Positions 652-16,728 of a DNA stretch of 64,000 bases are shown in pieces; the first letter of the stretch is position 1, and each line of letters opens with the position of its first letter. The position numbers were made by a program, and so were the translations under genes. The notes beneath the pieces are model-generated. The model saw only the letters and a list, made by a program, of their open reading frames with translations, searched no databases and was not told the DNA's origin. The stretch spans positions 2,389,001 through 2,453,000 of the forward strand of contig OY282373.1 of the NCBI GenBank assembly GCA_958295805.1, in the 5' to 3' direction. The stretch comes from an uncultured Nitrospirales bacterium. GTDB lineage: Bacteria > Nitrospirota > Nitrospiria > Nitrospirales > UBA8639.

Positions 652-655
652 CTCC

Positions 656-1330: not shown

Positions 1331-1333
1331 GAC

Positions 1334-2503
1334 GTGACGTTGTTTCGCTACGTCCTCCGCAACCTGGTCCGTCATCCACTCCGGACCACCTTAACCATTC
1401 TGGCCATCAGCATTATCATTCTGGCCTTCGGTCTCCTTCGCACGACGGTCACGGCTTGGTACGCGGAAGCCCTCGGGTCGCCACCCGATCGCTTGAGAAC
1501 CCGACACGCCGTTTCCATTTCCTTTCAACTTCCCGTGAGTTACCAACAACGCATTGCCGCGATTCCCGGCGTGATCGGGGTTTCCTACGCAAACTGGTTT
1601 GGTGGACGATGGAAAGACGGCAAAGCGTTTTTTCCTCGCTACGCCGTCGAGCCGACCTCGTATTTAGCACTCCATCCCGACGTTCACTTACCGCCTCTCC
1701 AACAACAAGCCTTTCTCCAGGACCGTCGGGCCTGCGTCGTTGGACGAAAACTTGCTGAAAAACTCGGGTGGCGCATTGGAGACGTTGTCCGACTGCAAGG
1801 CAGTCTCTATCCGGGCAATTGGGAATTCACGATACGAGGAATCTACACGGGAACGTCTCCTACCACTGATGAAGGGAACATGTATCTTCATTGGGCCGCG
1901 ATGGATGAGCGACGGCGAATCGAAGACCCGGGTCGTGCGGGGACCGTCGGCTGGTTTGTCGTTCGGATGGAGAAACCGGAGGACGCCGCGCAACTCTCCA
2001 CGACCATCGATCAGACCTTTATCAATTCCACGGCGGAAACGAGAACGGAAACGGAACAAGCGTTTCGAGCAAACATGGTAGCCATGTCCGGCGCCGTCAT
2101 CCGCGTCGTCGAAATCATGTCCGTCATCATCCTGGGCATCAGCATCCTGGTCGTCGCCAACGCCATGGCCATGACCGTTCGGGAGCGACGTCACGAATAC
2201 GGGATCTTGAAGACGTTGGGGTTTCGGGCTCCTCATTTCGGTCTCTTCATCTTCGGTGAATCCGCCTGTCTCTCTCTTCTCGGCGGAATCCTTGGGGTCG
2301 CCCTTTTATATCCTGCGAGCCGATGGTTCGGCACGCTCCTGACCCGCAATTTCGGAGGATTTTTCCCAATCGTTGAGTTGCCTGCTCATTTGCCGATGCT
2401 GGCGGTATTCCTCAGCGTGGGTCTTGGCCTGGTCGGGGGAATCATCCCGTTTTTCCTCTGCCTCCGCGGCCGGATTCAAGATGAACTCCGTTACGTGGGG
2501 TGA
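1334..2503 (+). CDS. ABC transporter permease, FtsX domain (first of two)
   Basis: 389 aa, GTG start three bases after the ATPase stop. The layout is typical of FtsX/MacB permeases: one N-terminal transmembrane helix (about 17-38), a large periplasmic domain, then three C-terminal helices from about residue 250. The conserved cytoplasmic phrase RERRHEYGILKTLGFRAPHF lies after the second helix and is the FtsX coupling segment. It pairs with the following permease, so the exporter probably uses a heterodimer of two FtsX-type subunits, as LolC/LolE does, rather than a MacB homodimer. Confidence 0.9.
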   Translation: MTLFRYVLRNLVRHPLRTTLTILAISIIILAFGLLRTTVTAWYAEALGSPPDRLRTRHAVSISFQLPVSYQQRIAAIPGVIGVSYANWFGGRWKDGKAFFPRYAVEPTSYLALHPDVHLPPLQQQAFLQDRRACVVGRKLAEKLGWRIGDVVRLQGSLYPGNWEFTIRGIYTGTSPTTDEGNMYLHWAAMDERRRIEDPGRAGTVGWFVVRMEKPEDAAQLSTTIDQTFINSTAETRTETEQAFRANMVAMSGAVIRVVEIMSVIILGISILVVANAMAMTVRERRHEYGILKTLGFRAPHFGLFIFGESACLSLLGGILGVALLYPASRWFGTLLTRNFGGFFPIVELPAHLPMLAVFLSVGLGLVGGIIPFFLCLRGRIQDELRYVG

Positions 2504-2512
2504 CGACGCCGA

Positions 2513-3682
2513 ATGCGTCTTTTCTTCTCATATAATCTCCGTCACCTGTTAACTCGACGAGCCACGAGCCTGTTCGCGATTACGGGAGTCGGTCTGGTCG
2601 TGTTCATTTTTGTGGGAGTTCTCATGTTGGCACACGGCGTCGAACACACCTTGGTCAATACAGGATCACCGGAAAACGCTTTGGTCCTTCGGAAGGGAGC
2701 CATCAGCGAAATCGGCAGCGGACTCTATCGGGAGCAGGCTGCCATCCTGCGGACGCTTCCGGAAATTGCACAAGAGAACGACCGCTTGCTGTTCTCACCT
2801 GAAATCGTGGTTCTCATCAACTTGGTGAAACGGGGAACGGACGCCTCCGGCAACGTGACGCTCCGCGGCGGATCAGCAGACTCGTTTCGCGTGCGGCCTC
2901 AAGTCAAAATTGTGAAAGGCCGCACGTGGCGTCCCGGAACCAATGAAGTGGTCACGGGGAAAGAAATCGCTCGACGCTTTCAAAACGCGGACGTCGGCCA
3001 GACGCTTCGGTTCGGCAGACAGACCTGGACCGTGGTCGGAACCTTTGAAGCAGGCGGAAGCGGGTTTGAATCTGAAACGTGGGGAGACGCTGACCGATTC
3101 ATGGACGCGTTCGGGCGCACGTATTATTCTTCCGCGGTCTTCCGACTCCGCAACCCCTCGCTCCTTTCCACGCTCCAAGCTCACGTTGACCAGGATCCCC
3201 GCCTGCCGATTTCCATTACCAAAGAGACCGCCTACTATGAATCGCGATCCGGCTCGCTTGCGAACTTTATCCGAACGCTGGGACTCATACTGACGGGGCT
3301 CTTCAGCGCGGGGGCAAGCCTCGGCGCCATGATTACGATGTACGGCGCGGTTGCGAATCGGACCACGGAAATCGGCACGTTGCGTGCGATGGGATTCACG
3401 CGAAGTCGGATCTTCAGCCTCTTCGTGTTTGAATCAGCCTTGATCGGGCTCATCGGATCCGGTCTGGGCATCATGCTGGCTTCATTGCTTCAATTCACTT
3501 CCTTGTCAACCATCAACTACGCCACCATGTCTGAATTGGTCTATGGTTTTATCCTGACGCATTCGATCGCCACGTGGGGCGTCCTGTTTGGCGTCGTCAT
3601 GGCCACCCTCGGCGGACTGCTCCCGGCCGTTCGCGCCATGCGCACGAACATTCCTCATGCTCTCAAGTTCAGAGGAGCCTGA
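2513..3682 (+). CDS. ABC transporter permease, FtsX domain (second of two)
   Basis: 389 aa, the same length as the preceding permease but clearly divergent. It has an N-terminal transmembrane helix (about 17-42), a periplasmic domain, and three C-terminal helices. The coupling motif is NRTTEIGTLRAMGFTRSRIF. It is the last gene of the efflux operon; no obvious hairpin terminator was seen in the 140 bp after it. The two permeases with one ATPase and one adaptor make a complete inner-membrane module; an outer-membrane channel would have to be encoded upstream of the window or elsewhere. Confidence 0.9.
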   Translation: MRLFFSYNLRHLLTRRATSLFAITGVGLVVFIFVGVLMLAHGVEHTLVNTGSPENALVLRKGAISEIGSGLYREQAAILRTLPEIAQENDRLLFSPEIVVLINLVKRGTDASGNVTLRGGSADSFRVRPQVKIVKGRTWRPGTNEVVTGKEIARRFQNADVGQTLRFGRQTWTVVGTFEAGGSGFESETWGDADRFMDAFGRTYYSSAVFRLRNPSLLSTLQAHVDQDPRLPISITKETAYYESRSGSLANFIRTLGLILTGLFSAGASLGAMITMYGAVANRTTEIGTLRAMGFTRSRIFSLFVFESALIGLIGSGLGIMLASLLQFTSLSTINYATMSELVYGFILTHSIATWGVLFGVVMATLGGLLPAVRAMRTNIPHALKFRGA

Positions 3683-3824: not shown

Positions 3825-3930
3825 CCGGTCATTGAACATAGAAATCCGGTGATTCGACATGTTGGAGGCAGGAGTTTTGGTCTATACTTTAACGATTTCG
3901 ATAATTGGTTTCATCATTAAAATGATAATC
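3825..3930 (+). promoter_or_regulatory. Promoter P1: 21-bp-spaced direct-repeat operator, -10 and Fur-like box (tonB operon)
   Basis: Two 15-bp direct repeats lie at 3825-3839 (CCGGTCATTGAACAT) and 3846-3860 (CCGGTGATTCGACAT), 21 bp start to start. Exactly 22 bp later comes TATACT (3883-3888), a good -10. There is no clear -35, so the second repeat covers that position, as expected for an activator-dependent promoter. Downstream, 3900-3930 holds overlapping Fur-like sequence (for example CATCATTAAAATGATAATC). The same arrangement recurs at 8133, 10820 and 14948. The activator is unknown; tandem repeats abutting -35 suggest an AraC-family type, which is inference. Confidence 0.75.
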
Positions 3931-3953: not shown

Positions 3954-5204
3954 ATGCGCCGTTCCGTTTTGCGTGCAAGGCACAATCCACATTATTGGAG
4001 CAGTTGGGGATTATCGGCGGGCACGCATACGCTGATGGTCGGCCTGGCTCTGATACTGTCGCACGCGCTCCCCGTTCCGAAAAAAGTAGAACGAAATCCA
4101 ATCACCGTTTCCTTCGTCACCCCTAAGCTCACCCAACCCCGGACGACTCCCGTCCATCGTCCGACCGTGAAAAGACCACCACTCACGCCGACGACGCAAA
4201 CGACGCTGGTACAACCCAAACCGATGCCCAAAGAACCCACTCAATCCAAACCTCGGACCCAGACGCAGACCAGACAATCCGTCTCTCCCCGAACGGTTGT
4301 CCAACCTTCCTTGAAGCCGTCTTCTCAACCACTGGCACGCCCCACCGGCGTCACGCGGACGTCCACGGCCCAACCGAAGACGGTCGTGCAGGCACAGGCG
4401 TCTTCTCAGCCTCGGGTCAGGAACGGCGCGGTTTCTTCCCACCCCGTGGCACGACCAGTCGGCAGAGCCGCGACGCAACCACGGTCACGTTCCATCGGCA
4501 CGACACGGCAACAGACGGCCGCCGTGGTTCATGCCTCGGCTTTCCATCGAGAGCAGACTCACACGAACGCGATGACCGCCAAGGTTCATCCCGTTGCACC
4601 ACGCAACCCGATCGTCCAGAAGAAAGTCATCCGTGCTCCGGCAATGGAAGCCGTGAAACAAACGCCACGCGTGGCACCCAAGGCGTCGCACGCGGAGAGG
4701 GTTCATGGTTCCCCAAAGACCGTGCGTCAACGGGTATCACGGCCTCATCAGATAAAGCCCAGCGTGGGTCAGAATTCCTCAAGGACCGTGCGTCAACGGG
4801 TATCACGGCCATCGGAAAATTCCGTCGTGCGGACGCGGACAACGACCCGTCACGTCCACCAAACGAGAAGAACCTCTGCAACAATTTCCAGGCCCGTTTC
4901 GACGGACGGGTTTTCTCCTGCACTCTTGGCCTTCAGCAAGCTTCTGCGCGAGAAAATCGCCCAAGCCCTTGAATTCCCACGTCTAGCCAGACGCCTGGGA
5001 TATTCCGGGACGACCCACGTCGTGATTACCTTGTCAAAGAACGGAATCGTGCAAGCCTTAACCATCTCGCAACCGTCGGGCTATGAGGTTCTGGACAAGG
5101 CAGCCGTTGCCACGTTGAAAAAAGTTCTCCCGACGGTGGAACCGCCTGAATCCATTGACGTGGCCCAGCTCGCCATTCCCATTGCCTTCAATCTGAAACA
5201 GTAA
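3954..5204 (+). CDS. tonB: TonB energy transducer
   Basis: 416 aa. A single N-terminal transmembrane segment (about residues 18-40) is followed by a very long, basic, Pro/Gln/Arg/Thr-rich spacer of roughly 280 residues and a C-terminal TonB_C domain (about 330-416; phrase TTHVVITLSKNGIVQALTIS). The spacer is not the usual Glu-Pro/Lys-Pro type; it carries an internal duplication of TVRQRVSRP, visible as a near-exact DNA repeat at 4719-4746 and 4782-4810. TonB spans the periplasm and passes proton-motive energy from ExbB/ExbD to outer-membrane receptors. exbB and exbD follow, and the receptor at 8315 is a likely client. ATG at 3954 has an AGGGG just upstream. Confidence 0.9.
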   Translation: MRRSVLRARHNPHYWSSWGLSAGTHTLMVGLALILSHALPVPKKVERNPITVSFVTPKLTQPRTTPVHRPTVKRPPLTPTTQTTLVQPKPMPKEPTQSKPRTQTQTRQSVSPRTVVQPSLKPSSQPLARPTGVTRTSTAQPKTVVQAQASSQPRVRNGAVSSHPVARPVGRAATQPRSRSIGTTRQQTAAVVHASAFHREQTHTNAMTAKVHPVAPRNPIVQKKVIRAPAMEAVKQTPRVAPKASHAERVHGSPKTVRQRVSRPHQIKPSVGQNSSRTVRQRVSRPSENSVVRTRTTTRHVHQTRRTSATISRPVSTDGFSPALLAFSKLLREKIAQALEFPRLARRLGYSGTTHVVITLSKNGIVQALTISQPSGYEVLDKAAVATLKKVLPTVEPPESIDVAQLAIPIAFNLKQ

Positions 5205-5251: not shown

Positions 5252-5713
5252 ATGATGCGCACAAGTTTCTTCGCCTGCCTCCTGTCTCTGACGATCCTGG
5301 TTCCACCGTATGCCCTGGCTCAAACCAGCACGTTTACCGCTGAAACCATTGACGCCGACGGCATTCAGATGTCGGTCTCCAACGCCCGGTTATACTGGGA
5401 AGAAAAAATTGATGAGACGACGTTTGTCCCTCATGAAATTACACACGTGCCGGTCAAACGCGGCGCCGCAACGATTAACGTCCAATTTGAGCGGATCGCG
5501 AGCATTCAGATCAGACCCGATCACCCGACGAAGGGACGTCAGGCTCTGACTATCAAGCTGGTCAATGGAAAATCCGGGGAATTCCCCCTGGCGAAAGCGG
5601 TCACGCTCATCGGACAATCCGACTTCGGCGAGACCCGCGTTTCCATGAATGGCCTTCGGTCCATTACCTTTTCCAAGAACCCCGGCGAGCAACGGGCGGC
5701 ACAAGCCCCGTAA
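5252..5713 (+). CDS. Secreted protein of unknown function in TonB-ExbBD operon
   Basis: 153 aa with a clear signal peptide (about 1-24, cleavage after ALAQ); the first of two adjacent ATGs has an AAAAGGAG upstream. I do not recognise the family. The mature protein looks all-beta: short hydrophobic strands separated by charged turns (MSVSNARLYWEEK, TINVQFERIASIQI, RVSMNGLRSITFS). It sits between tonB and exbB, so it is probably periplasmic and made together with the energising complex. It could be a binding protein, an assembly factor or an accessory TonB partner; nothing in the sequence decides. No cysteines suggest lipidation. Confidence 0.8.
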   Translation: MMRTSFFACLLSLTILVPPYALAQTSTFTAETIDADGIQMSVSNARLYWEEKIDETTFVPHEITHVPVKRGAATINVQFERIASIQIRPDHPTKGRQALTIKLVNGKSGEFPLAKAVTLIGQSDFGETRVSMNGLRSITFSKNPGEQRAAQAP

Positions 5714-5753: not shown

Positions 5754-6179
5754 ATGACCACCTTACACGCCGTCATTGATTATGGAATTATCGGGCTCCT
5801 CCTGCTGTTGAGCACGTGGGCCGTTGCCGTTGCCGTCGAACGGTGGCTCTTTTATCGGCGCGCGCCCTTAGCTCAGTTCGCCGATTCACATCAACTGGAA
5901 ATTTCATTAACGAAACGACTCGTCGTCATCGGCACCGTTGCCGCCAATGCGCCCTACATCGGCCTGCTTGGAACCGTCCTCGGCATCATGGTGACGTTTC
6001 ACTCCATGGGCACTACCAAAACGATCGAAGTGAGCGCGATCATGGTCGGATTAAGCCTGGCGTTGAAAGCCACGGCGGTCGGCCTGCTGGTCGCCATTCC
6101 TTGCGTCGTCATGAACAATGCGTTACGGCGACGGGTGGCGGAGTTGATGACGCAATATAAGGCTCTCCATGGATCATGA
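5754..6179 (+). CDS. exbB: ExbB/TolQ-family proton channel, short type-2 ExbB
   Basis: 141 aa, much shorter than enterobacterial ExbB (about 240) and matching the short type-2 ExbB subfamily that lacks the long cytoplasmic insert. Three transmembrane helices are visible (about 9-27, 55-77, 95-118). The conserved core NAPYIGLLGTVLGIMVTFHSM and the helix-3 stretch LSLALKATAVGLLVAIPCVV contain the small and polar residues that line the pore. It forms the pentameric stator that, with ExbD, energises TonB. The exbD start lies inside its 3' end (11-bp overlap), suggesting translational coupling. Confidence 0.9.
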   Translation: MTTLHAVIDYGIIGLLLLLSTWAVAVAVERWLFYRRAPLAQFADSHQLEISLTKRLVVIGTVAANAPYIGLLGTVLGIMVTFHSMGTTKTIEVSAIMVGLSLALKATAVGLLVAIPCVVMNNALRRRVAELMTQYKALHGS

Positions 6180-6543
6180 ACTGAATCAGATCAACGTCAT
6201 TCCCCTTGTCGACGTGATGTTGGTCCTGCTGGTCATTGTTCTGACGACGGCGACCTTTATTTCGACGGGACAAATTCCCGTGGATCTCGCGCAAGCCGAC
6301 GCCACCGGCGCCACATCGAGCGAGTCGATTACGATCACGATGACCGCATCAGGGGATGTCTTTTTGAACGGCGCCCCCCTTCCACAAGAAGCCATACGCA
6401 GCGAATTGCAGCGGTTCCCGCCGGACACGCTGGTTCTCGTTCGAGCCGACCGCGTTCTTCAGCTTGAGCAATTCGTTGAAGTCGTGGATGACGTGAGAGG
6501 CGCCGGATTAACAAACGTCAGTCTTGCCGTTGAACAAGAGTGA
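6169..6543 (+). CDS. exbD: ExbD/TolR-family biopolymer transport protein
   Basis: 124 aa. The N-terminal transmembrane helix contains the essential acidic residue (Asp15 in NVIPLVDVMLVLLVIVL), which carries protons in this family. It is followed by a periplasmic ExbD/TolR domain (about 45-124; phrase DTLVLVRADRVLQLEQFVEV). The start overlaps the exbB stop and its own stop overlaps the GTG of the next gene, so exbB-exbD-DUF2141 are tightly coupled. TolR is the alternative, but the adjacent tonB favours ExbD. Confidence 0.9.
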   Translation: MDHELNQINVIPLVDVMLVLLVIVLTTATFISTGQIPVDLAQADATGATSSESITITMTASGDVFLNGAPLPQEAIRSELQRFPPDTLVLVRADRVLQLEQFVEVVDDVRGAGLTNVSLAVEQE

Positions 6544-7049
6544 CGACCGGAGTGGAGCGTTCCAACCATAAACCCACACGCCTGACCCTTCTCCTCAGTC
6601 GATGCCGGCTTCGTGGCGTGACCACGTGGCTCTGGATCACGTGGGGGGTCTTTGGTGCAGGATTGTTATCCATCGACTCCGGTCTCGCGGCCACGCTCCG
6701 AGTCACGGTAGAGGGAGTCCATAATAGCTCACAACCCGTTCGCGTTCTTCTCTTCAATTCCCCCGACTCATTCCCCGATGAAGCACGCCGTTTCAAAGCT
6801 CTCGCAACGGGGGCCGCACAAGGCGTGGCCATCGTTGAATTTACGCACCTCGATCCCGGCACCTACGCGATCATGGCCTATCATGACGAAAATGGAGACA
6901 ACAAGCTGAATCGGACCTTGGGAATGTGGCCGTCGGAAGGATATGGGCTCAGTCTGAACCCGCTTGTCCTCGGTCCGCCTGCTTTTCAAGAGACCGCTTT
7001 CGAACTCCCGCCGCACGGACTCTCCCTGACTATTGCTTTGCACTATTAA
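6540..7049 (+). CDS. DUF2141-family secreted/anchored protein
   Basis: 169 aa; GTG start overlaps the exbD stop (GTGA). A hydrophobic segment (about 28-50, ending GLAA) is a signal peptide or anchor preceded by a basic stretch. The mature part matches DUF2141: RVLLFNSPDSFPDEARRFKA, then TYAIMAYHDENGDNKLNR, a calcium-loop-like acidic turn, then MWPSEGYGLSLNP. DUF2141 proteins are small periplasmic beta proteins often found near TonB systems; their function is unknown. The last codons (IALHY, then stop) coincide with the start of the downstream tandem array, and a 70-bp copy of its internal MWPSEGYGLSLNP region lies beyond the array. Confidence 0.85.
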   Translation: MTTGVERSNHKPTRLTLLLSRCRLRGVTTWLWITWGVFGAGLLSIDSGLAATLRVTVEGVHNSSQPVRVLLFNSPDSFPDEARRFKALATGAAQGVAIVEFTHLDPGTYAIMAYHDENGDNKLNRTLGMWPSEGYGLSLNPLVLGPPAFQETAFELPPHGLSLTIALHY

Positions 7050-7859
7050 GCTTTCTCCTTCTTTTGTAGCCGCGCCATCTTATGGCGCTTTCCGGTGGTC
7101 GCATGAGATGCGACCCTACGCATCCCTGGATCCCCGACTCACAATGAACACCACAGACTTGATCGAACCATTGCTTTGCACTATGAAGCTTTCTCCTTCT
7201 TTTGTAGCCGCGCCATCTTATGGCGCTTTCCAGTGGTCGCATAAGATGCGACCCTACGCATCCCTGGATTCCCGATTCACAATGAACACCACAGACTTGA
7301 TCGAACCATTGCTTTGCACTATGAAGCTTTCTCCTTCTTTTGTAGCCGCGCCATCTTATGGCGCTTTCCGGTGGCCGCATAAGATGCGGCCCTACGCATC
7401 CCTGAATTCCCGATTCACAATGAACACCACAGACTTGATCGAACCATTGCTTTGCACTATGAAGCTTTCTCCTTCTTTTGTAGCCGCGCCATCTTATGGC
7501 GCTTTCCGGTGGCCGCATAAGATGCGACCCTACGCATCCCTGAATTCCCGATTCACAATGAACACTACAGACTTGATCCAACCATTGCTTTGCACTATGA
7601 AGCTTTCTCCTTCTTTTGTAGCCGCGCCATCTTATGGCGCTTTCCGGTGGCCGCATAAGATGCGACCCTACGCATCCCTGAATTCCCGATTCACAATGAA
7701 CACTACAGACTTGATCGAACCATTGCTTTGCACTATGAAGCTTTCTCCTTCTTTTGTAGCCGCGCCATCTTATGGCGCTTTCCAGTGGTCGCATAAGATG
7801 CGACCCTACGCATCCCTGGATCCCCGACTCACAATGAACACCACAGACTTGATCGAACC
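7032..7859 (+). repeat. Tandem array of six 138-bp units, each holding a pair of REP-like palindromes (BIME-like)
   Basis: Units start at 7032, 7170, 7308, 7446, 7584 and 7722, each 138 bp and nearly identical. Within each, a 54-bp core (7066-7119 in unit 1) begins with GTAG and ends with CTAC. It contains two hairpins: GCGCCAT-CTT-ATGGCGC (7072-7088) and GGTCGCAT-GAG-ATGCGACC (7097-7115). Read from either end, each hairpin is preceded by GTAG, the signature of REP elements mobilised by RAYT (Y1) transposases. The second stem varies between units with partly compensatory changes (GGTCGCAT/ATGCGACC versus GGCCGCAT/ATGCGGCC). No RAYT gene is in the window. Because 138 is divisible by three, long ORFs run through both strands; I regard them as non-coding. 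Confidence 0.85.
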
Positions 7860-8132: not shown

Positions 8133-8222
8133 CAGGCGAATAGACATAAATTTCAGGCCAATGAACATGTTGAACGAGTCCATTTCTCGTTATAAGTATG
8201 ATGAAAATGATTCTATCTATCA
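8133..8222 (+). promoter_or_regulatory. Promoter P2: 21-bp-spaced direct-repeat operator, -10 and Fur-like box (TonB-dependent receptor)
   Basis: Direct repeats at 8133-8147 (CAGGCGAATAGACAT) and 8154-8168 (CAGGCCAATGAACAT) are 21 bp apart, with spacer AAATTT. After exactly 22 bp comes TATAAG (8191-8196). The Fur-like box at 8202-8222 (TGAAAATGATTCTATCTATC, then A) matches 16 of 21 positions of the TGATAATGAT-type Fur palindrome by my count, the best of the four. A second partial box (TGAAATTGATT) follows at 8229. The start codon is about 120 bp downstream of the -10. Confidence 0.78.
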
Positions 8223-8314
8223 ATATCTGAAATTGATTGCCCCTTCGCAGAACGTCGGCAGCGGCCGAAAGCCGTCTCCTGCGTATTCATTATCAAGAAT
8301 AAAAGGAGACTTGC

Positions 8315-10675
8315 ATGATGAGAAAGATTTGTCTGTTGGCTGTCCTTCTATCTGGTCTATGGGGCCTTTCCACGGCCTTGGTCCACGCGCAAGACACTGA
8401 AGACGCTACGGACGCGCAATCCAACAAAGTCAAACTACGACTCGAACAGGTGACGGTCAGCGCCACCAAAACCAAACGGGATACGTTGACGACCCCAGGC
8501 GAAGTCAGCGTCCTGACGCAAGAATATTTTCAACAACGCCAGGCACAAAGCCTGGACGACGTGTTGCGCTACGAACCGGGCGTTGATTCGGGAGGAGGCC
8601 CGCGGAGCATGGCAGAAGGCCCGAACATTCGAGGGTTGTCGGGTGACCGAGTCCTGACGCTGTTGGACGGCGTCCGGCTCACCTTCCAATCCGGTCACAA
8701 GGGTCGGCTCTTTATAGACATGGATCAACTCAAACAAGTTGAAGTCATTCGCGGACCAGGCTCGGCTTTGTACGGCAGCCAGGCCGTCGGCGGGGTCGTG
8801 GCCATGGAGACAAAGGATCCCTCCGACTATCTGGCTCCGGACATGCGGTACGGCCTTCGCCAGAAATTCGGCTATCAATACGCCAACGAAGAACTCCTCT
8901 CCACCACCACGTTATCGGCTCGCTTGGCCAAGCAGTGGTCCGTCATGACCAGCGGCACCTTTCGGGCCGGTGAGAACATTCATCTGGGCGGCGACCTGGG
9001 ACGTTTATCCAACTCTGCTCGAGATAACGCGGCCAATTTGAGCAAACTCGTATGGACGCCGACGCCGCACGATGAAGCCGAGTTTTCGATTCAAGCCACT
9101 CGCCAAGCCGCCCAGGTGCCCTTCCAAGCGAATTCTATGCCCTCCATGCAGAGTTCCGTTGCGAACCGAGTGAATCGTCAAATCACGTATCGCCTGGGAT
9201 ACACGCATAACAATCCGACGAATCCTTACGTGAATCTTCGGGGATTCGTCTATCTCACGACGCTGGACGTGACGGAAAGCCGGATTACCGATCCTGGAGA
9301 AAAAGACGATATCAGTTTCGACACGTTTGGATATGATCTCAGGAATTCCGTGAATTTCGGCGATCCTTCGACGCACCATCACATTGTGACCTTCGGGTCG
9401 GAATTTTACCGGAACACTCAGAAGGGACAAGGCAGCCGCACCACGAGTCGTCGATTTATTTACTCCGAGCCTCGAAGTATCAGCCGGGGACCCTTCCTCC
9501 CGCCCGTTACTGTCCCCAGTTTTCCCATCGGCCTCAGTGCTGAAAGTGTCCCTCTGGGATCCCGGGTATTTTTTCCCTCTGCCCAAGCCAATACCTTCGC
9601 TCTGTACGTTCAGGATGAGATCACGATCATGGACCGCGTCAACCTCATTCCCGCCGTACGATGGGATCATTGGGAAAATAAAACGGCCGGCCGTGAAACC
9701 AAATCCGTAGGCACCGTGAACCCCAAAGTCGGCGCAGTGATTCAGGTCACGGATTTTCTGTTTCTTCACGCGAACTATGCCCATGGATTTCGTCAACCCA
9801 CGTTCGGCGAACTCTTTATCTCCGGCACGCATTTTCCAGGTTCCGTCTTCGCTCCGAATCCTGACCTGAAACCGGAACGGAGCCGGAATCTCGACGCGGG
9901 ATTCCGCATGAAATTGCCAAACGTGCTTTCCGGCAACGATCAATTCATTTTCAAAGGAACCTACTTCAGAAATTCGTTCAAGGATTTTATTGACTTTACC
10001 TCCGGAGGGGCGGTTCAAAATCAAATTTGTAATACGAATCCTCCCAATCTTCCAGGCGGGCGAAGGTTTAATCCAAGACAACCGATAACGGCACCGTGCC
10101 CTTTTATCCATTTTGGCGGGAGGAACGTTCGGCCAGGATTTCATTTCGGCACGCTCGTCCAGCGGGGAACGGATGCCATCCAAACGTTCAGGAACGTTCC
10201 GGATGCCTTGATTCAGGGATGGGAAGCCGAGTTTGAATGGCGCACCCTTGAGAACGTGACCCTCTATGGAAACTACAGTCAATCCCACGGCACCGACAGA
10301 ATCAATGAACGCCCACTCTCCAGCATTCTCCCAAAACAGTTCGTCCTGGGCATTGACTATCAACTACCTGCCTGGGGAGTCACCATGGGCGGACGAACGC
10401 AAATGGTCGGCGACCAGAGTCGCGTGCCAATATCCGATGATCCCTTCGTAACCGGAACCCCGACCGGAGGCTATACGCTTTTTGACATCTGGGCCACCGT
10501 GCATCCCGCCAGGGCGCTGCTGCCCGACCTTCCGACGTCGTGGGTTCAAGGTTTCCAGGTCAATCTCGGGGTTGATAACCTGACCGATCGAAATTACCGG
10601 CGACACTTATCATCGCTTCCTGAGGCCGGAATCAATCCCAAGGTGTCGGTGTGGTACTCCTTGAACCTTCCGTAA
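8315..10675 (+). CDS. TonB-dependent outer-membrane receptor, heme/hemoglobin/transferrin-receptor type
   Basis: 786 aa; two adjacent ATGs follow AAAAGGAG. Signal peptide about 1-26 (ending VHAQ). A TonB-box-like segment (LEQVTVSA, about 43-50) leads into the plug, with PNIRGLSGDRVLTLLDGVR and EVIRGPGSALYGSQAVGGVV. The barrel fills the rest. The FRQPTFGELF (about 492) and NPDLKPERSRN (about 515) boxes match the FRAP and NPNL motifs of heme/hemoglobin receptors, as does the ending YRRHLSSLPEAGINPKVSV. Two cysteines in one extracellular loop (about 571-605) could form a disulphide. Heme or another tetrapyrrole is therefore the favoured ligand, but the motifs are not decisive and a siderophore remains possible. 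It is monocistronic, with its own promoter P2 and terminator. Confidence 0.9.
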   Translation: MMRKICLLAVLLSGLWGLSTALVHAQDTEDATDAQSNKVKLRLEQVTVSATKTKRDTLTTPGEVSVLTQEYFQQRQAQSLDDVLRYEPGVDSGGGPRSMAEGPNIRGLSGDRVLTLLDGVRLTFQSGHKGRLFIDMDQLKQVEVIRGPGSALYGSQAVGGVVAMETKDPSDYLAPDMRYGLRQKFGYQYANEELLSTTTLSARLAKQWSVMTSGTFRAGENIHLGGDLGRLSNSARDNAANLSKLVWTPTPHDEAEFSIQATRQAAQVPFQANSMPSMQSSVANRVNRQITYRLGYTHNNPTNPYVNLRGFVYLTTLDVTESRITDPGEKDDISFDTFGYDLRNSVNFGDPSTHHHIVTFGSEFYRNTQKGQGSRTTSRRFIYSEPRSISRGPFLPPVTVPSFPIGLSAESVPLGSRVFFPSAQANTFALYVQDEITIMDRVNLIPAVRWDHWENKTAGRETKSVGTVNPKVGAVIQVTDFLFLHANYAHGFRQPTFGELFISGTHFPGSVFAPNPDLKPERSRNLDAGFRMKLPNVLSGNDQFIFKGTYFRNSFKDFIDFTSGGAVQNQICNTNPPNLPGGRRFNPRQPITAPCPFIHFGGRNVRPGFHFGTLVQRGTDAIQTFRNVPDALIQGWEAEFEWRTLENVTLYGNYSQSHGTDRINERPLSSILPKQFVLGIDYQLPAWGVTMGGRTQMVGDQSRVPISDDPFVTGTPTGGYTLFDIWATVHPARALLPDLPTSWVQGFQVNLGVDNLTDRNYRRHLSSLPEAGINPKVSVWYSLNLP

Positions 10676-10694
10676 CGTCCAACGCTTCCAATCC

Positions 10695-10775
10695 GTGACT
10701 CTCTGCTACTCCTCCTTCCCCCTTGCAGAAGTCACAGAGAGAGGCCGGCCCCTGGTCGGCCTCTCCTCTTCTTCT
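10695..10775 (+). ncRNA. 3' module A: C-rich-loop hairpin plus intrinsic terminator (candidate 3'UTR-derived sRNA)
   Basis: Beginning 19 bp after the receptor stop, GTGACT (10695-10700) pairs with AGTCAC (10730-10735) and CTGC with GCAG. They enclose a pyrimidine loop containing ACTCCTCCTTCCCCC, which resembles the anti-Shine-Dalgarno tail of 16S rRNA. A terminator stem follows: GAGAGGCCG (10739-10747) with CGGCCTCTC (10757-10765), then a T/C-rich tail. The module recurs almost unchanged at 11344-11424. At minimum it is the receptor transcript's terminator; a separate small-RNA role is inference. Confidence 0.55.
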
Positions 10776-10819
10776 TGAAAGTACGCGAACCCGTTGAATA
10801 CGAATCAACACGTCATTTT

Positions 10820-10915
10820 CCGGTGGATGGACATAAATTTCCGGCCAATGAACATGTTAAAGATGGCTGTTTCCGGTTATAAGAGTCTCTAAACTGAAAA
10901 TGATTGTGCATTTCA
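10820..10915 (+). promoter_or_regulatory. Promoter P3: 21-bp-spaced direct-repeat operator, -10 and Fur-like box (heptad-repeat peptide)
   Basis: Direct repeats at 10820-10834 (CCGGTGGATGGACAT) and 10841-10855 (CCGGCCAATGAACAT) are 21 bp apart, with spacer AAATTT as in P2. TATAAG lies exactly 22 bp later (10878-10883). The Fur-like palindrome TGAAAATGATTGTGCATTTC plus A occupies 10895-10915 (15 of 21 positions by my count). P2 and P3 are similar beyond the motifs (both have GACATAAATTT and GGTTATAAG or CGTTATAAG), suggesting duplication. Confidence 0.78.
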
Positions 10916-10996
10916 AATTTGAAATGTTACATCCAGAACGTCAAGAGAGGCCGAACGGCATACGTCCATTCAGATAAAATTAACAAGGAGGAACCG

Positions 10997-11299
10997 ATGA
11001 GGAAATTTTGTTTCTTGGCTATCCTGCTGTTCTTTGGACTTTCTACAAGTGGGGTCTTCGTGCAAGCCGCCGAAGACACGCAATCCGATCCTAAGGGTGA
11101 GCAAACCGCTGCCCAAGGTGAACAACCCGCCGCTAAGGGCGAACAACCCGCCGCCATGGACGAACAACCCGCCGCCACGGACGAACAACCCGCCGCTAAG
11201 GGCGAGCAACCCGCCGCCATGGACGAACAACCCGCCGCCACGGACGAACAACCCGCCGCTAAGGGTGAACAACCCACCGCCAAAGGAGCGCAGGAGTGA
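10997..11299 (+). CDS. Small secreted heptad-repeat protein (EQPAA repeats)
   Basis: 100 aa. The ATG at 10997 is preceded by AACAAGGAGGAACCG, an excellent ribosome site, so the longer upstream reading is rejected. Residues 1-24 form a signal peptide (MRKFCFLAILLFFGLSTSGV..) that resembles that of the receptor gene (MRKICLLAVLLSG..). The mature peptide is about ten imperfect heptads of the form (K/M/T)(G/D)EQPAA and is acidic, Gln/Pro/Ala-rich and without Cys or His. No known family is recognised. Promoter P3, the similar signal peptide and the 3' module tie it to the receptor gene, as if a receptor transcription unit had had its body replaced by repeats. It could be a periplasmic or secreted spacer, a surface peptide, or merely the carrier of a regulatory 3'UTR. 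Confidence 0.75.
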   Translation: MRKFCFLAILLFFGLSTSGVFVQAAEDTQSDPKGEQTAAQGEQPAAKGEQPAAMDEQPAATDEQPAAKGEQPAAMDEQPAATDEQPAAKGEQPTAKGAQE

Positions 11300-11343
11300 C
11301 TGTTGTTTCAAGTCGTGAGTTTTAAGGATTGCAAGCTGATTCC

Positions 11344-11424
11344 GTGACTCTGCTCTGCTCCTCCTTTCCCCTGATTGCAGAAGTCACGTCCGAGAGGCCG
11401 ACCCCTGGTCGGCCTCTTTTTTTT
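11344..11424 (+). ncRNA. 3' module B: C-rich-loop hairpin plus strong intrinsic terminator (candidate sRNA)
   Basis: Near-copy of module A. GTGACT (11344-11349) pairs with AGTCAC (11382-11387) and CTGC with GCAG. The loop contains CTCCTCCTTTCCCC, nine of ten bases like the 16S tail CACCUCCUUU. The terminator stem is GAGAGGCCG (11392-11400) with CGGCCTCTT (11410-11418), followed by a run of eight T, stronger than in module A. Loop, stem and terminator are conserved while the genes in front differ, which argues that the RNA structure itself is selected. Confidence 0.6.
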
Positions 11425-11534
11425 GAACACCGGGGGGAACAACACGTACAATTTGAACGGTTCATTTGCAAAAGCCCGTCTAAGCAAACGTGTCTCCGAA
11501 GTGTTTAATCTGGGGATGGATTCCCGCTAAAACC

Positions 11535-11708
11535 TGCGGGAATGACAGCGGGAAGGCCGCGGAAATGACACCGGGAAGGTTACGGGAATGACACCGGGAA
11601 GGTCGCGGGCATGACAGTGGGAAGGTTACGGGAATGACAACGGAAGGTTGCGGGAATGACAACGAAGGCTGCGAGAATGACAAGAAAACTTACGAACTGC
11701 GGGAATGA
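11535..11708 (+). repeat. About seven tandem 23-bp repeats of GCGGGAATGAC type
   Basis: Imperfect units of about 23 bp (for example TACGGGAATGACACCGGGAA followed by GGT) run from 11535 to about 11708 and decay toward the 3' end. The first is the right arm of a palindrome with GGATTCCCGC at 11518-11527. The core GTCATTCCCGC / GCGGGAATGAC is the same as in the 22691-22775 element, a common dispersed intergenic repeat type. The array ends 12 bp before the next gene's ATG, where no good ribosome site is visible. The rest of 11425-11534 shows nothing else I recognise. Confidence 0.75.
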
Positions 11709-11720
11709 GCCCGTTTTTCC

Positions 11721-14700
11721 ATGACCACCCTGATTCTGCTCTTGTTCGCCGTTCATTCTTTTGTCGGCATTGCCTATGAGGTCGTGTGGATCAAGCTGTT
11801 GACCGCCTCCATCGGCATGACGGTGACTGCCTTCGGCGTCGTGCTCTCCACGTTCATGGCAGGGTTGGGCATCGGCAGTTACGTGATCGCTCGATGGAAC
11901 GGCTCGCCTCAGGCCCATCACGAATCCGTCAGTCGCGTCGCCTGTCGCTTCATCGCCTTTCTGCAAATTCTGATGGCTCTCCTGGGCGTCACGTTTCCTC
12001 TTTTATTGAACTGGGGGGACCAGTTCTACGTGCTGCTCGCACCGGAAACCGACGGGATCCGGCACCTTCTGGTAAGAAGCTTCTACGTCGGGGCACTCCT
12101 CCTTCCCGTCACCACCCTGCACGGGATGAACTTTCCCGTGCTGGCCTCCTTGCTCACGCGATGTTTTGCTCGTTCAGGCACGACCAAACCCGGCCTGCTT
12201 TACTGTATCGGCCTGCTGGCCTCAGGATTGGGCTCGCTCGCTTCGCTCGCCTTGATTCCTTCTCTGGGATTGGAGAACACCTCCCTGGCACTCGGCGTCA
12301 CGAACCTCATCCTCGCTCTGGCTGCTTTTCTCGCAAGTTACCAGACACGTGCTCGTGCCCAAACCATTCAGAAAGGAGCGTCCCCATCTCGCACACGTCG
12401 CACCCAGGACGCCGTCGCGCCCACCCCATTTTCTGCATCCGTTCTTCAAACGCTGGGCGCAGTCGTGGGATTTCTTGTTCTTTCGTTAGAAATCATCGGC
12501 GCCCAATACGTCTGGCTCATCGTCAACGTCACCGCCTATGCGGAAGGCATCCTTCTCACCACGGTTCTGCTCATGATGGGATTCGGCTCCGGCGCCTACC
12601 TCTTGCTCAGAGGACGGGTGCGGAACCGATCCACGTTGTTGACGTGGGGACTCTTCATCACCCTCATCGCTCAAATCGCGGTCGTGCCTCTTGCGGGTGA
12701 CATTGCTGGTCTGTTTGATCGAATCTTCCAGGAACTGCGCCCGGACGAGATGGTGGTCCACTTTCTTCTCAGCGACGCGTTGCTGACCTTTACGATTCTC
12801 GGCGTGCCCATGATTGGATTGGGCATGGCCTTTTGCAGCCTCTGCGACCTTGCAACGTCATCCTCACCCAACCAACCCCATGCGGCCGTCATTTCTCCTT
12901 TGGGACGGTTGTATGCGTGGCACAACTGGGGAGCCGTGGTCGGATCCGTGCTCACGACCTTCGGGTTTCTTCTCCTGTTGGGACTCACCCATACCTGGCT
13001 GTTGCTCTCAGCCTGTCTCGTTTGCACGCTGGCGTTGCTGGTTTGGCGTCTTCCCTTGTCGTCGGCACGGGGCAAGCCCGTCCCACGCCGTGCCAGAATT
13101 TTCGGCACGTGGGGCAAAGGATTCGCCTTCTTTCTGCTTCTCGGCGTCCTCGTCCGGCTTGCAACGAACGCGGACCTGACCTTCCGGCACGCCGCGGCCG
13201 GGAGTTCCCAACGGGTACTGTATCACCATGAAGACGCCATGGGAGTCACGGAAGTCTTTGAAGACGAAGAAACCACGGCCCGCACGCTCCTGACCAGCCG
13301 GCTGCGACAGGAAGGGGGCAGCGGCCCTGAAGAGATCCGCGTTCAGCGCATTCAAGGTTATTTGCCACTGTTCCTGCATCCCGATCCCCGACGCGTGCTC
13401 GTGGTGGGATTAGGCACGGGCATCAGCCTTTCTCCCACCTTACGGGAGGAAGTCAAACAAGTCACGGTGGTCGAAATCTCTCCAGGCGTCATTGAAGCGG
13501 CGGAACGTTTCTTTGCTCAGGCGAATGCTTACGTTCTGGAGCACCCCAAAGTCCGGGTCGTGGAACAAGACGGACGCAACTTTATCAAGCTGACGCGCAA
13601 CAGGTACGACCTCATCGTGCAAGAATTGTTTTTTCCCTACCAGACCGGGGTCGGCAGTCTGTACACCCGGGAGCATTATCAGCAGTGTCGAGACAAATTG
13701 GCTCCCGGCGGCCTCATGGCCCAATGGATTACGATCAATCAGTTGAGCACGAATGATTTGCGGACCCTGGTCGGTACCTTCCAGTCCGTGTTTCCGGCGA
13801 CCTCTCTGTGGTTGAACGGCGGATACCTGTTGATTCTGGGCGGACGTGATCCCCTGCACGTCGATCTTCAACGCTTTCTGGCACGATACGAGATCAACGA
13901 TCCATTGGGCGGCACGTCCCAGCTCGATTCCGATCCCTACAATCTGTTGGGCCTGTTCGTCAGCCACGGCTCGGCCGTTCGGAATTGGACGGACGATGCG
14001 CCGCTGAATACCGATGATAACCGCTTCATCGAATACTCGACGCCTCTTGCCTTCAACGCCTTGAACACGGTGAACTTGGCCGCGGAGACGTTGACAAGCC
14101 TGCTCCCCCACTTCCGTCCCCTCACCGATGTGGTCCGCGTCGGCCCGTCCTCGGACGACGACGCGCTCACGCGGTTGTCTCAAGTTTCCGCGGCGGCACG
14201 ACTCCTGATTAAAGGCATCGTGGCACGTGCCGGAAACCGCGTCGATGAGGCCATGGAGCTCTATGCTCAATCATGGGAACTTCACCCTTCGAATTATCAG
14301 ACCCGCACGTTTCTCGAACGGACCTGGGCAACCAAAGGGCACGCGCTGGTTCTCGAAGAACGCGACGACGCTGCCCTCCCCTGGCTGCACAAGGCTCTGA
14401 TGATCAACGCACGGAACCTCAACGTGCGGTTCGACCTCGGCCTGATCCATTCACGGCAAGGAAACGATCCGGTGGCGGCAGATTTGTATGAATCCATCAT
14501 TCGTCTGAATCCCGGGTGGACCCAAATCGCGTCCGTCTGGTTCAACCTGGGGCTAATCCGCTATCGAATGGGTCTCTATCAATCCGCCACAACCTCGTTC
14601 CGCGAAGTACTGGCGCACGAATCCACGTCGATTGACGCTCGATTCAATTTGGCCAACAGCCTGGCTCAATCAGGAAAATACCGGGAAGCCGTCACGCAGT

Positions 14701-14831
14701 ATCAAGAACTCTTGAAACTCGCCCCCGACCATCAAGAGGCCCGGGCGAATCTCAAGGAAATCCTTGCCTGGCTTGAACGTGGTGACAAGCGTCACCGTGA
14801 TGCTTCATCAGGACGCCTCTCCGTCAAGTAA
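11721..14831 (+). CDS. Polytopic membrane spermidine-synthase-like protein with C-terminal TPRs
   Basis: 1036 aa. Residues about 1-490 hold many transmembrane helices in two blocks separated by a short loop near 210-240. This matches the large membrane-embedded spermidine-synthase-like (fused MFS/SpeE) family. Residues about 550-720 are a Rossmann methyltransferase/aminopropyltransferase fold: VLVVGLGTGISLSPTLREEV, acidic VVEISPGVIEAA, and LIVQELFFPYQTGVGSLYT. About 840-1030 are tetratricopeptide repeats (NVRFDLGLIHSRQGNDPVAA, IDARFNLANSLAQSGKYREA). True spermidine synthase activity is doubtful in this family; the substrate is unknown. It lacks the shared P1-P4 promoter, and the ATG has no clear Shine-Dalgarno. 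Confidence 0.85.
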   Translation: MTTLILLLFAVHSFVGIAYEVVWIKLLTASIGMTVTAFGVVLSTFMAGLGIGSYVIARWNGSPQAHHESVSRVACRFIAFLQILMALLGVTFPLLLNWGDQFYVLLAPETDGIRHLLVRSFYVGALLLPVTTLHGMNFPVLASLLTRCFARSGTTKPGLLYCIGLLASGLGSLASLALIPSLGLENTSLALGVTNLILALAAFLASYQTRARAQTIQKGASPSRTRRTQDAVAPTPFSASVLQTLGAVVGFLVLSLEIIGAQYVWLIVNVTAYAEGILLTTVLLMMGFGSGAYLLLRGRVRNRSTLLTWGLFITLIAQIAVVPLAGDIAGLFDRIFQELRPDEMVVHFLLSDALLTFTILGVPMIGLGMAFCSLCDLATSSSPNQPHAAVISPLGRLYAWHNWGAVVGSVLTTFGFLLLLGLTHTWLLLSACLVCTLALLVWRLPLSSARGKPVPRRARIFGTWGKGFAFFLLLGVLVRLATNADLTFRHAAAGSSQRVLYHHEDAMGVTEVFEDEETTARTLLTSRLRQEGGSGPEEIRVQRIQGYLPLFLHPDPRRVLVVGLGTGISLSPTLREEVKQVTVVEISPGVIEAAERFFAQANAYVLEHPKVRVVEQDGRNFIKLTRNRYDLIVQELFFPYQTGVGSLYTREHYQQCRDKLAPGGLMAQWITINQLSTNDLRTLVGTFQSVFPATSLWLNGGYLLILGGRDPLHVDLQRFLARYEINDPLGGTSQLDSDPYNLLGLFVSHGSAVRNWTDDAPLNTDDNRFIEYSTPLAFNALNTVNLAAETLTSLLPHFRPLTDVVRVGPSSDDDALTRLSQVSAAARLLIKGIVARAGNRVDEAMELYAQSWELHPSNYQTRTFLERTWATKGHALVLEERDDAALPWLHKALMINARNLNVRFDLGLIHSRQGNDPVAADLYESIIRLNPGWTQIASVWFNLGLIRYRMGLYQSATTSFREVLAHESTSIDARFNLANSLAQSGKYREAVTQYQELLKLAPDHQEARANLKEILAWLERGDKRHRDASSGRLSVK

Positions 14832-14947
14832 AAGGCAAGCACGCTCTTCTCCACCACGTCGGCGAACGCCTTGATCGCCGGGACAACGCCGGCAGTCGAG
14901 ACGTCATCCCGTTCTCCGCGTCACGTGACCACCCGTTTCCCACATAG

Positions 14948-15040
14948 CCGGTCATTGAACATCTTTTTCCGGCGATTGAACATGTACGGCTTTCATCGTA
15001 CTTGGTATTTTTCAAAAACTGAAATTGATTCGCTATTTCA
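14948..15040 (+). promoter_or_regulatory. Promoter P4: 21-bp-spaced direct-repeat operator, -10 and Fur-like box (secreted chelatase)
   Basis: Direct repeats at 14948-14962 (CCGGTCATTGAACAT, identical to the first repeat of P1) and 14969-14983 (CCGGCGATTGAACAT) are 21 bp apart. After exactly 22 bp comes TATTTT (15006-15011), a weak -10. The Fur-like palindrome TGAAATTGATTCGCTATTTC plus A occupies 15020-15040 (14 of 21 positions by my count) and runs into the ribosome site AAAAAGGAGG. A repressor bound here would also block the start region. Confidence 0.76.
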
Positions 15041-15057
15041 TAAAAAGGAGGTCCGTG

Positions 15058-16728
15058 ATGAACCATCTGAGGAAAAACCCGTGGACGGCTCTGTTTCTGT
15101 TCGTCCTGATGAGTACCAGTCCCCTCCCCGCATGGGGCCAATCTCATCTCGGCTTTCTGGTCGTTGCACCGGACCGTGGGTTTCTTGGGAATCAGGAAAC
15201 CAGGAAGATCGTCGAAGAATTCCAGCGCAATTATCCCGTATCCCTGGCTTTTGTCGGAAACAAGTATGAAAGCGTCGATACCGCGTATACGTCATACATC
15301 AAACAAGCCCTGAACCAACTACGTTCATTACACGTGACGTCCGTCGTCGCGATTCCATTCTTTCTTTCCGATGCCGACCCGCAACTGCGTGCAGTCCGTA
15401 ACCTGTTGCCTGCCTATGGAAACGATCTGGACATCAAATGGGCTCCAGCCATGGCCGAGAGTCATCTGATCGGCCAGATCCTTCTCGACCGGATCAAAGC
15501 CGTCAGCCAATCTCCTCAACACGAACGACTCGTGCTCGTCGGACTCGGCGCGCGCGACGAAAAAAGTGAACGGGCCATTACGGACGACTTAACGCAGTTG
15601 CTTCAGTACGTCCAACGATATAAGTCGTTCCAGAAGAGTGAAATCGTCGTCTACTATGACCGGCACGCGGAACAAGCCCGTGAAAAAAATCAGAAGATTA
15701 CCGCGCACGTGACGGAATTGGCCGCCATGCAAGGGCGTACCTTGGTCGTCCCGGCGTTTATCGGCGTCAAGTTCGATCACATGATGGCCATGACGTCCTG
15801 GCTCCAACGCAGATTTCAGAAACTGAACGTGGTGTTTCAGCCGGAAGAAATCGCTCCTCACCCCAACCTGCTTGTGTGGCTCAAGAAAACCGCACATCAG
15901 CACGTGGACGTGCTTCCCAACGAAATCGGGGTCGTCATTATGCCGCACGGATCAACCCAACCGTACAATGATGCCATTGAAAAGACGATTGCCCCGCTGA
16001 CGCGGCTCTATCAAATAGAAATGGCGTATGGCATGGGAGATCAGGTCATTATTCAACGCGCCGCGTCTCGTCTTGAACAACGAGGCATCAAGAAAATCGT
16101 GTTTGGAAGGATGTATGGGCTCGTCGATCACATGAAACCTAAAACGGATTACATCCTCGGTCTTTCCGACGAGTATCTCCATGAGTTGGATCAGGGCCAT
16201 ACCCCGCCACCACAAATTCGAAGCGCCGCAATTTTTTCTACGTTCGGAGGCTATGAAGAAGGTGCCGACGTTGCGCAGGTGTTGCACGACCGGATCACGG
16301 AAATCAGTCAAAACCCTTCAGAGGAAACCGTCATTCTTCTTGCTCATGGGACGAAATCCGACGAAGACAATCAACGCTGGTTGTCGGTGATTAACGCCAA
16401 CATCGAGAAACTCCGACGGGAACCGCATTGCGCAAAACTGAAGGCCATCAAGGCCGCGACCGTACGCGAAGATTGGCCTGAGTTGCGCAAGAAGGCGGTG
16501 AAGGAGGTGCGCGAACTCATTCAGGAAGGGAATAAAACCGGAAGAGTGCTCGTCATCTCGAATCGTCTCTACGGTCCAGGGCCCTACCCCAAAATGCTGG
16601 ACGGCCTCGACTTTGAATTCAATGGGAAAGGATTTCTCTCTCCAGTCATCGCACACTGGCTTGAGCAATCCATTCAGCAAGTCACCGAACGGCTGAGAAA
16701 CCCGACAAGGGGCACTGAGCAAAGCTAG
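15058..16728 (+). CDS. Secreted CbiX/sirohydrochlorin-chelatase-like protein with four half-domains
   Basis: 556 aa from the ATG at 15058, chosen because AAAAAGGAGG lies 7 bp upstream. Residues 1-28 are a signal peptide, unusual since CbiX, SirB and ferrochelatases are cytoplasmic; periplasmic CbiK of Desulfovibrio is a known parallel. Four CbiX-like half-domains can be traced (about 31-150, 150-285, 288-410, 415-556). Halves three and four keep the metal-site histidine (His297 in IMPHGSTQP, His430 in LLAHGTKS). The equivalent spots in halves one and two read VAPDRG and VGLGARDE without His. Family knowledge suggests insertion, removal or binding of Co, Ni or Fe in a tetrapyrrole, here in the periplasm. 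Promoter P4 links it to the TonB system and receptor. Confidence 0.8.
   Translation: MNHLRKNPWTALFLFVLMSTSPLPAWGQSHLGFLVVAPDRGFLGNQETRKIVEEFQRNYPVSLAFVGNKYESVDTAYTSYIKQALNQLRSLHVTSVVAIPFFLSDADPQLRAVRNLLPAYGNDLDIKWAPAMAESHLIGQILLDRIKAVSQSPQHERLVLVGLGARDEKSERAITDDLTQLLQYVQRYKSFQKSEIVVYYDRHAEQAREKNQKITAHVTELAAMQGRTLVVPAFIGVKFDHMMAMTSWLQRRFQKLNVVFQPEEIAPHPNLLVWLKKTAHQHVDVLPNEIGVVIMPHGSTQPYNDAIEKTIAPLTRLYQIEMAYGMGDQVIIQRAASRLEQRGIKKIVFGRMYGLVDHMKPKTDYILGLSDEYLHELDQGHTPPPQIRSAAIFSTFGGYEEGADVAQVLHDRITEISQNPSEETVILLAHGTKSDEDNQRWLSVINANIEKLRREPHCAKLKAIKAATVREDWPELRKKAVKEVRELIQEGNKTGRVLVISNRLYGPGPYPKMLDGLDFEFNGKGFLSPVIAHWLEQSIQQVTERLRNPTRGTEQS

Follow-up and report, generated by a model that had tools for sequence, protein, structure and literature searches.

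A secreted tandem protein of the class II chelatase fold in a putative heme-type iron acquisition locus of Nitrospirota

How iron is obtained from heme without a heme oxygenase is an open question, and the answer offered by the protein HmuS applies mainly to the Bacteroidota. A candidate is offered by a locus of an uncultured Nitrospirales bacterium in which a secreted protein with CbiX-like domains, here called CbiX4, is encoded together with a TonB-dependent receptor. We analysed a stretch of 64,000 nucleotides of this genome (contig OY282373.1, positions 2,389,001 to 2,453,000; in the following the window). Positions refer to the window unless genome positions are indicated, and all genes, codons and operator copies given with window positions lie on the plus strand. 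As judged from sequence comparisons and structure models, we suggest that the locus encodes a regulated system of outer membrane and periplasm for heme-type iron acquisition and that CbiX4 would be either a bis-histidine heme binder or a de-chelatase, an overall reading which we regard as reasonably likely.

The gene of CbiX4 (15058–16728) encodes 556 amino acids from an ATG at 15058, which is preceded by a ribosome-site-like AAGGAGG, and the stop codon ends at 16728. By inspection, the N-terminus (MNHLRKNPWTALFLFVLMSTSPLPAWGQ) carries a Sec-type signal peptide of about residues 1–28 and no lipobox, and N-terminal hydrophobic leaders are kept in the aligned homologues, in agreement with the signal peptide already assigned in the first-pass annotation. 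The assignment to a protein family is based on Pfam, HHalign, structural alignment and an alignment of 23 homologues. The Pfam model PF01903 (CbiX) is matched with 24.5 bits at a cut-off of 22, and some CbiX4 homologues score below this cut-off. In contrast, the equivalog model of the sirohydrochlorin nickelochelatase CfbA (NF033198) yields only 26.9 bits against a cut-off of 120, and no CobN match was found in the Pfam search of the 556-residue protein. The first-pass annotation had described four CbiX-like half-domains. Four lobes are indeed found (D1, residues ~30–153; D2, ~154–288; D3, ~289–420; D4, ~421–556), and when the lobe profiles derived from the 23-sequence alignment are compared with HHalign, D1 matches D3 with 96% and D2 matches D4 with 97%, while the N-terminal half matches the C-terminal half with 98.9% (E 1.3e-17). 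Because of these matches CbiX4 is, on profile evidence, better described as two bilobal class II chelatase units in tandem, which arose by duplication.

The AlphaFold models of full mature CbiX4 (three sequences; pLDDT 56, pTM 0.40) and of the C unit (six rows including the paralogous halves; pLDDT 53) allow statements at the level of the fold only. In the low-confidence model, the N unit aligns (VIA-align) to 27 class II chelatase entries with Z 11.1–13.8, the next row having 10.3. Among these matches are SirB, HemH/CpfC, CbiK, FetB and the periplasmic CbiK of Desulfovibrio. With the weak C-unit model chelatases again rank first, with Z up to 9.8. The search rows omit some chelatase families, and absence from the rows carried no weight. 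The bilobal class II chelatase fold is thus found for the N unit by structure (model pLDDT 56) and for the C unit through its HHalign match with the N unit, which upholds the CbiX-type fold proposed before.

Invariant in all 23 homologues are Asp39, Arg40, His268, His297, His430, Glu471, Asp472, Trp473, Arg503, and Trp534. His297 in lobe D3 (codon 15946–15948) and His430 in lobe D4 (codon 16345–16347) occupy the HG position of CbiX, which is the first catalytic position, so that each lobe of the C unit contributes one histidine. D1 and D2 lack the histidine at this position and the N unit has neither catalytic position; the earlier remark that only the last two half-domains keep the histidine was therefore correct. 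The invariant His268 at the end of lobe D2 (codon 15859–15861) and the invariant Glu471-Asp472-Trp473 of lobe D4 (codons 16468–16476) are features which had escaped the first reading. According to the alignment, neither D3 nor D4 retains the second catalytic position, D4 reading NRLYGPGPY at this place. In many homologues the loop between D3 and D4 is enriched in histidine (8.6% versus 2.6%, in a test that ignores relatedness). In addition, a one-unit homologue with a lipobox in genome G366 (locus L078), for which a sequence search against solved structures gave no significant match, keeps both His297 and His430 as well as the REDW motif. Since this homologue retains these residues, the C unit stands out as the core of CbiX4.

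The known bilobal class II enzymes carry a catalytic pair of histidines, or a histidine plus a glutamate, within one lobe (PMC7689651). Judged by alignment and not from a solved structure, this canonical pair is missing from all lobes of CbiX4. Because of this CbiX4 is, as far as its residues tell, no standard metal-inserting chelatase. It has the fold and the lobe duplication in common with CbiX, CfbA, SirB and HemH, but is exported, has four lobes and carries one histidine in each lobe of the C unit, where these enzymes have a pair in a single lobe. The periplasmic CbiK of Desulfovibrio vulgaris (2xvx, 2xvz; Z 11.8) is an exported class II protein as well; it is a cobaltochelatase with a canonical active site and consists of one unit, whereas CbiX4 consists of two and lacks the histidine pair in one lobe. 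In fold and setting, FetB/IhtB of Porphyromonas gingivalis (9b86) comes closest among the known proteins; it is not named in the first-pass annotation, is the top Foldseek row of the CbiX4 model and is structurally aligned with Z 12.2. Compared with FetB/IhtB, a secreted lipoprotein from a different phylum with a single bilobal unit and a link to a TonB receptor, CbiX4 shows a signal peptide, a fold match and a link to a receptor, but has two units in tandem and no lipobox, so that it agrees with FetB/IhtB only in part. In unit number, the lipoprotein homologue of G366 is FetB-like. We know of no AraC operator for FetB/IhtB. It has been described as an outer-membrane CbiK-like protein of the chelatase fold and is suggested to act on extracytoplasmic heme (PMC6460266, PMC13402209).

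The receptor encoded at 8315–10675 is a TonB-dependent receptor of the heme/hemoglobin type. It passes the cut-offs of both TIGR01785 (TonB-hemin; 432.6 bits, cut-off 316.85) and TIGR01786 (374.5 bits, cut-off 323.75), confirming the earlier call. Histidines are found in an SGH motif in the plug and in a GTHF motif between the FRQP and NPDL boxes, and both are kept in the four receptors of the window type. These places correspond to what we take, from the motif of ShuA and HemR, to be the heme-ligand sites, namely the plug and the region between the FRAP and NPNL boxes. The receptor thus resembles ShuA and HemR in TIGR01785 score and ligand histidines, but its partner is a chelatase-fold protein and not an importer of the HmuTUV type.

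Upstream of the receptor lie the genes of TonB (3954–5204; PF03544, 52.3 bits), of p153, a secreted protein of 153 amino acids without a Pfam match which is carried by eight examined CbiX4 or receptor loci (5252–5713), of ExbB (5754–6179; PF01618), of ExbD (6169–6543; PF02472) and of a DUF2141 protein (6540–7049; PF09912, 94.6 bits). Between the DUF2141 gene and the receptor gene, six near-identical tandem copies of 138 bp (7032–7859; 97% alike) are open in both strands. Downstream of the receptor follow a small secreted low-complexity protein with EQPAAKG repeats (10994–11299), which are coded by 21-bp repeat units (11093–11283), then a non-coding array of 23-bp repeats (TGCGGGAATGACAACGGGAAGGT; 11535–11683) and a membrane protein of family F18 with spermidine-synthase-like (PF01564) and TPR matches (11721–14831). 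The latter adjoins the window-type receptor in all four loci having this receptor. The locus also reaches farther upstream than noted before, as it comprises an AraC gene and a block at 1–3682 with a MacA-like adaptor, whose start is outside the window, an ABC ATPase (656–1330) and two FtsX-type permeases (1334–2503 and 2513–3682). The same block precedes tonB in genome G007 and in many loci of f3, another family of the same order, probably the Nitrospiraceae. Upstream of the AraC gene (genome positions 2380850–2387621; L087:4851–11622) are found genes for ApbE, a porin-like protein of 502 amino acids, a protein with an FMN-binding domain and a membrane protein, which may represent a flavin-based reductase of the periplasm tied to the uptake locus.

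The genes of the locus are connected by an operator of 37 bp, which consists of CCGG-N7-GAACAT-like units in a direct repeat with a period of 21 bp. Copies are found before tonB (3826–3862), the receptor gene (8134–8170), the gene of the small secreted protein (10821–10857) and the CbiX4 gene (14949–14985). All four lie in this locus, with 0 expected by chance, and no fifth copy was found in the 2.9-Mb genome with up to three mismatches. An operator common to the chelatase, tonB-exbBD and the receptor had been proposed before and is borne out. Direct repeats of 21 bp are typical of AraC-type activators, and the gene of an AraC-family regulator is located just upstream of the window (genome positions 2387646–2388386), as is likewise the case in f3 loci, several of which have related operator sites before tonB. 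At the level of the sequence, the direct repeat of about 21 bp and the nearby AraC gene thus are those of an AraC-type regulon, and we infer that the AraC protein binds the operator. The operator is followed by a TATAAG-like element and then by an inverted repeat which resembles a Fur box and is weak by score; before the receptor TATAAG and the Fur-like box, the latter at about 8203–8221, are found, and before CbiX4 the inverted repeat reads TGAAATTGATTCGCTATTTCA. The Fur-like boxes of the window match the 19-mer consensus at 12–14 of 19 positions and have a near-fixed position, but taken site by site they are little above the AT-rich background; we keep putative Fur control as a suggestion.

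Relatives were searched within one phylum, in plasmids and by one pattern scan of genome contigs. Of the 14 genomes of the genus, three have the receptor, and precisely these three also have an intact CbiX4 (Fisher P 0.003, where the shared block may be one event). Genome G007 is syntenic (MacA-ABC-FtsX-FtsX-tonB-p153-exbBD-DUF2141-receptor-spermidine synthase-like-CbiX4) and G003 keeps the block from tonB onward, its contig ending there. Three genomes without the receptor (G005, G006, G011) contain only broken pieces of CbiX4 (L006, L007, L008), and these remnants suggest that the whole locus was lost. Outside of the syntenic group of the genus, a TonB receptor is found in the analysed stretch (~20 kb for most) at 18 of 22 loci, compared to 4 of 40 control stretches of the same genomes (P 2e-8, which is generous as the loci are related). 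The association of receptor and chelatase across genomes, which the first-pass annotation had named as a check, is thus seen within the genus and beyond.

Many f3 genomes have an operon AraC-MacA-ABC-FtsX-FtsX-TonB-CbiX4-receptor-CbiX2-PepSY_TM. Here CbiX2 (L066:16528–17466 and equivalents) is a second secreted chelatase-fold protein, beside the TonB receptor and PepSY_TM, and its first lobe keeps both catalytic histidines of CfbA (NHGSR, PHTFDDIP). We do not count CbiX2 to the system of the window: it is absent from the genus, and the genes hit weakly in G000, G003 and G007 are those of CbiX4. HmuY is the hemophore family of the Bacteroidota hmu system. Two genomes of f7, a family of the same class, show the gene order CbiX4-receptor-HmuY, so that HmuY-family proteins outside the Bacteroidota (L070:4393–5973, L073:10774–12015) adjoin CbiX4 and a TonB receptor. 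CbiX4 and a receptor are also carried near PRTRC genes on the circular Manganitrophus plasmids CP114554, CP114559 and CP114562; in Manganitrophus GAC4 the CbiX4 gene is split into four annotated pieces. A scan of viral contigs with the family alignment yielded no relatives. A protein of 250 amino acids beside CbiX4 in G017, G270 and G178 was considered as a ZIP transporter, which we do not claim, as it has no Pfam match at E 1e-4.

The gene content of the host genome might give a hint where the heme is handled. A search for the classical heme oxygenase family found nothing in it, and the one FecCD permease that it encodes belongs to a B12-type locus, so that the gene content shows no evident HmuUV-type transporter by which intact heme would be imported. 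For these two reasons handling of heme in the periplasm is favoured. FeoB and AhbA/B (PF17805) were not found in the host genome. None of the 25 genomes of f1, the family to which the host belongs and is counted, gave a HemH (PF00762) match, while 13 of 16 genomes from sister families did. The idea that the locus is driven by heme auxotrophy was rejected, since most of the f1 genomes do not have the locus. A CbiX-like protein of 177 amino acids is encoded elsewhere (genome positions 572744–573277; L001:1306–1839) next to a MerR-type regulator gene and is a candidate substitute for the missing ferrochelatase. By inspection it lacks a signal peptide; it is distinct from the secreted protein and has no NCBIfam assignment.

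Given the TonB-hemin receptor with its ligand histidines, the shared operator, the AraC gene, the co-occurrence, HmuY and the chelatase fold, we consider heme-type iron uptake by the locus highly probable. Heme, or an iron tetrapyrrole like it, would reach the periplasm through the receptor and be received in the cleft of the C unit of CbiX4, where His297 and His430, one from each lobe, would hold the iron on its two faces. The invariant Glu-Asp pair would then help CbiX4 to remove the iron, or CbiX4 would hold the heme for another step; its N-terminal unit, which lacks these histidines, would serve for structure or docking. Empty porphyrin or surplus heme may leave through the MacA/FtsX exporter, and transcription would be activated by AraC and repressed by Fur. 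That CbiX4 acts on the imported tetrapyrrole in the periplasm appears likely to us, and roughly half of our confidence in this action goes to de-chelation rather than to binding only. The first-pass proposal of metallo-tetrapyrrole import with a periplasmic chelatase that removes or inserts metal or carries the ligand is thus supported in part, namely as regards export signal, fold, receptor type, operator and co-occurrence. Because the canonical histidine pair in one lobe is absent, metal insertion seems the weakest part of the proposal, and binding or removal would fit the residues better.

There are other ways to read the same evidence. The chelatase fold might have been reused for binding, CbiX4 being a hemophore-like periplasmic shuttle which performs no chemistry. 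The loss of the canonical catalytic pair and the one histidine per lobe, which suits bis-histidine binding of heme, agree with this, and the class II fold is close to that of periplasmic binding proteins, as seen from the LacI/PBP rows among the structural matches and from a likeness also described in PMC12583661. However, the invariant Glu-Asp-Trp in the lobe of His430 and the histidine-rich loop of many homologues suggest metal handling, and in two genomes HmuY is already found beside CbiX4; we regard a mere shuttle as possible but not likely. If CbiX4 inserted a metal (Co, Ni, Mn or Fe) into a porphyrin that is imported or located at the surface, or supplied cobalt or B12 metabolism, this would be in line with the CbiK- and FetB-like fold and with the FetB-dependent insertion of Mn reported in a review (PMC13402209). 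Such a role is nevertheless improbable, as the canonical histidine pair is absent and the genome has its B12-type receptor and transporter genes elsewhere, without the operator.

A broader role is conceivable as well, since some CbiX4 loci have siderophore-type receptors and the substrate may thus be another iron complex. In four f3 genomes (L069, L072, L074, L075) a siderophore-type receptor, FecI/FecR and PepSY_TM proteins are found near CbiX4, and on the Manganitrophus plasmids CbiX4 is accompanied by PepSY_TM, ferritin and a receptor that scores best as siderophore-like. CbiX4 could then be a general periplasmic protein for ferric complexes, siderophores included, the heme receptor being one partner of several. 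This appears rather unlikely to us, because the receptor of the window clearly belongs to the TonB-hemin type, as do its syntenic relatives, HmuY occurs in two genomes, and the fold as well as the secreted CfbA-like companion in f3 point to tetrapyrroles. Still, the CbiX4 family may serve more than heme, and a metallo-tetrapyrrole may not be the substrate of all its members. Least of all do we expect CbiX4 to be an unrelated passenger beside the receptor, as might be imagined from G017, which keeps CbiX4 without a nearby TonB receptor: the CbiX4 gene has its own operator copy, CbiX4 and receptor are present and lost together in the genus, and the excess of TonB receptors at the 22 further loci over the controls is hard to reconcile with a passenger.

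Returning to heme-type uptake with CbiX4 as binder or de-chelatase, HmuS of the Bacteroidota hmu operons offers a comparison. It is reported to remove iron from heme with a class I fold, and His-carboxylate dyads on two faces have been proposed (PMC12583661). Both proteins are found in a heme-uptake setting with a TonB receptor, and HmuY also occurs in some CbiX4 loci. In architecture they are unrelated: HmuS is class I, CobN-like, membrane-bound and has about 1450 amino acids, whereas CbiX4 has 556 amino acids and the class II fold. By analogy, CbiX4 may work like HmuS without being an HmuS. We tentatively propose, as a possibility that is well short of probable, that the Nitrospirota have an independent route to heme iron without oxygenase in which a secreted tandem class II protein de-chelates periplasmic heme by means of two histidines that face each other, one from each lobe, and of the Glu-Asp pair, and an FtsX-type exporter removes the porphyrin. 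If this is true, CbiX4 would correspond to HmuS on the class II side and could take its place beside HmuY.

CbiX4 thus represents a widespread, regulated and exported family in heme-type loci of Nitrospirota, found in Nitrospirales genomes and on Manganitrophus plasmids. It is a soluble candidate for heme iron acquisition whose residues are directly testable, and its locus connects heme scavenging with a group of bacteria that has a demand for heme, within a family in whose genomes HemH, the usual ferrochelatase, was not detected.
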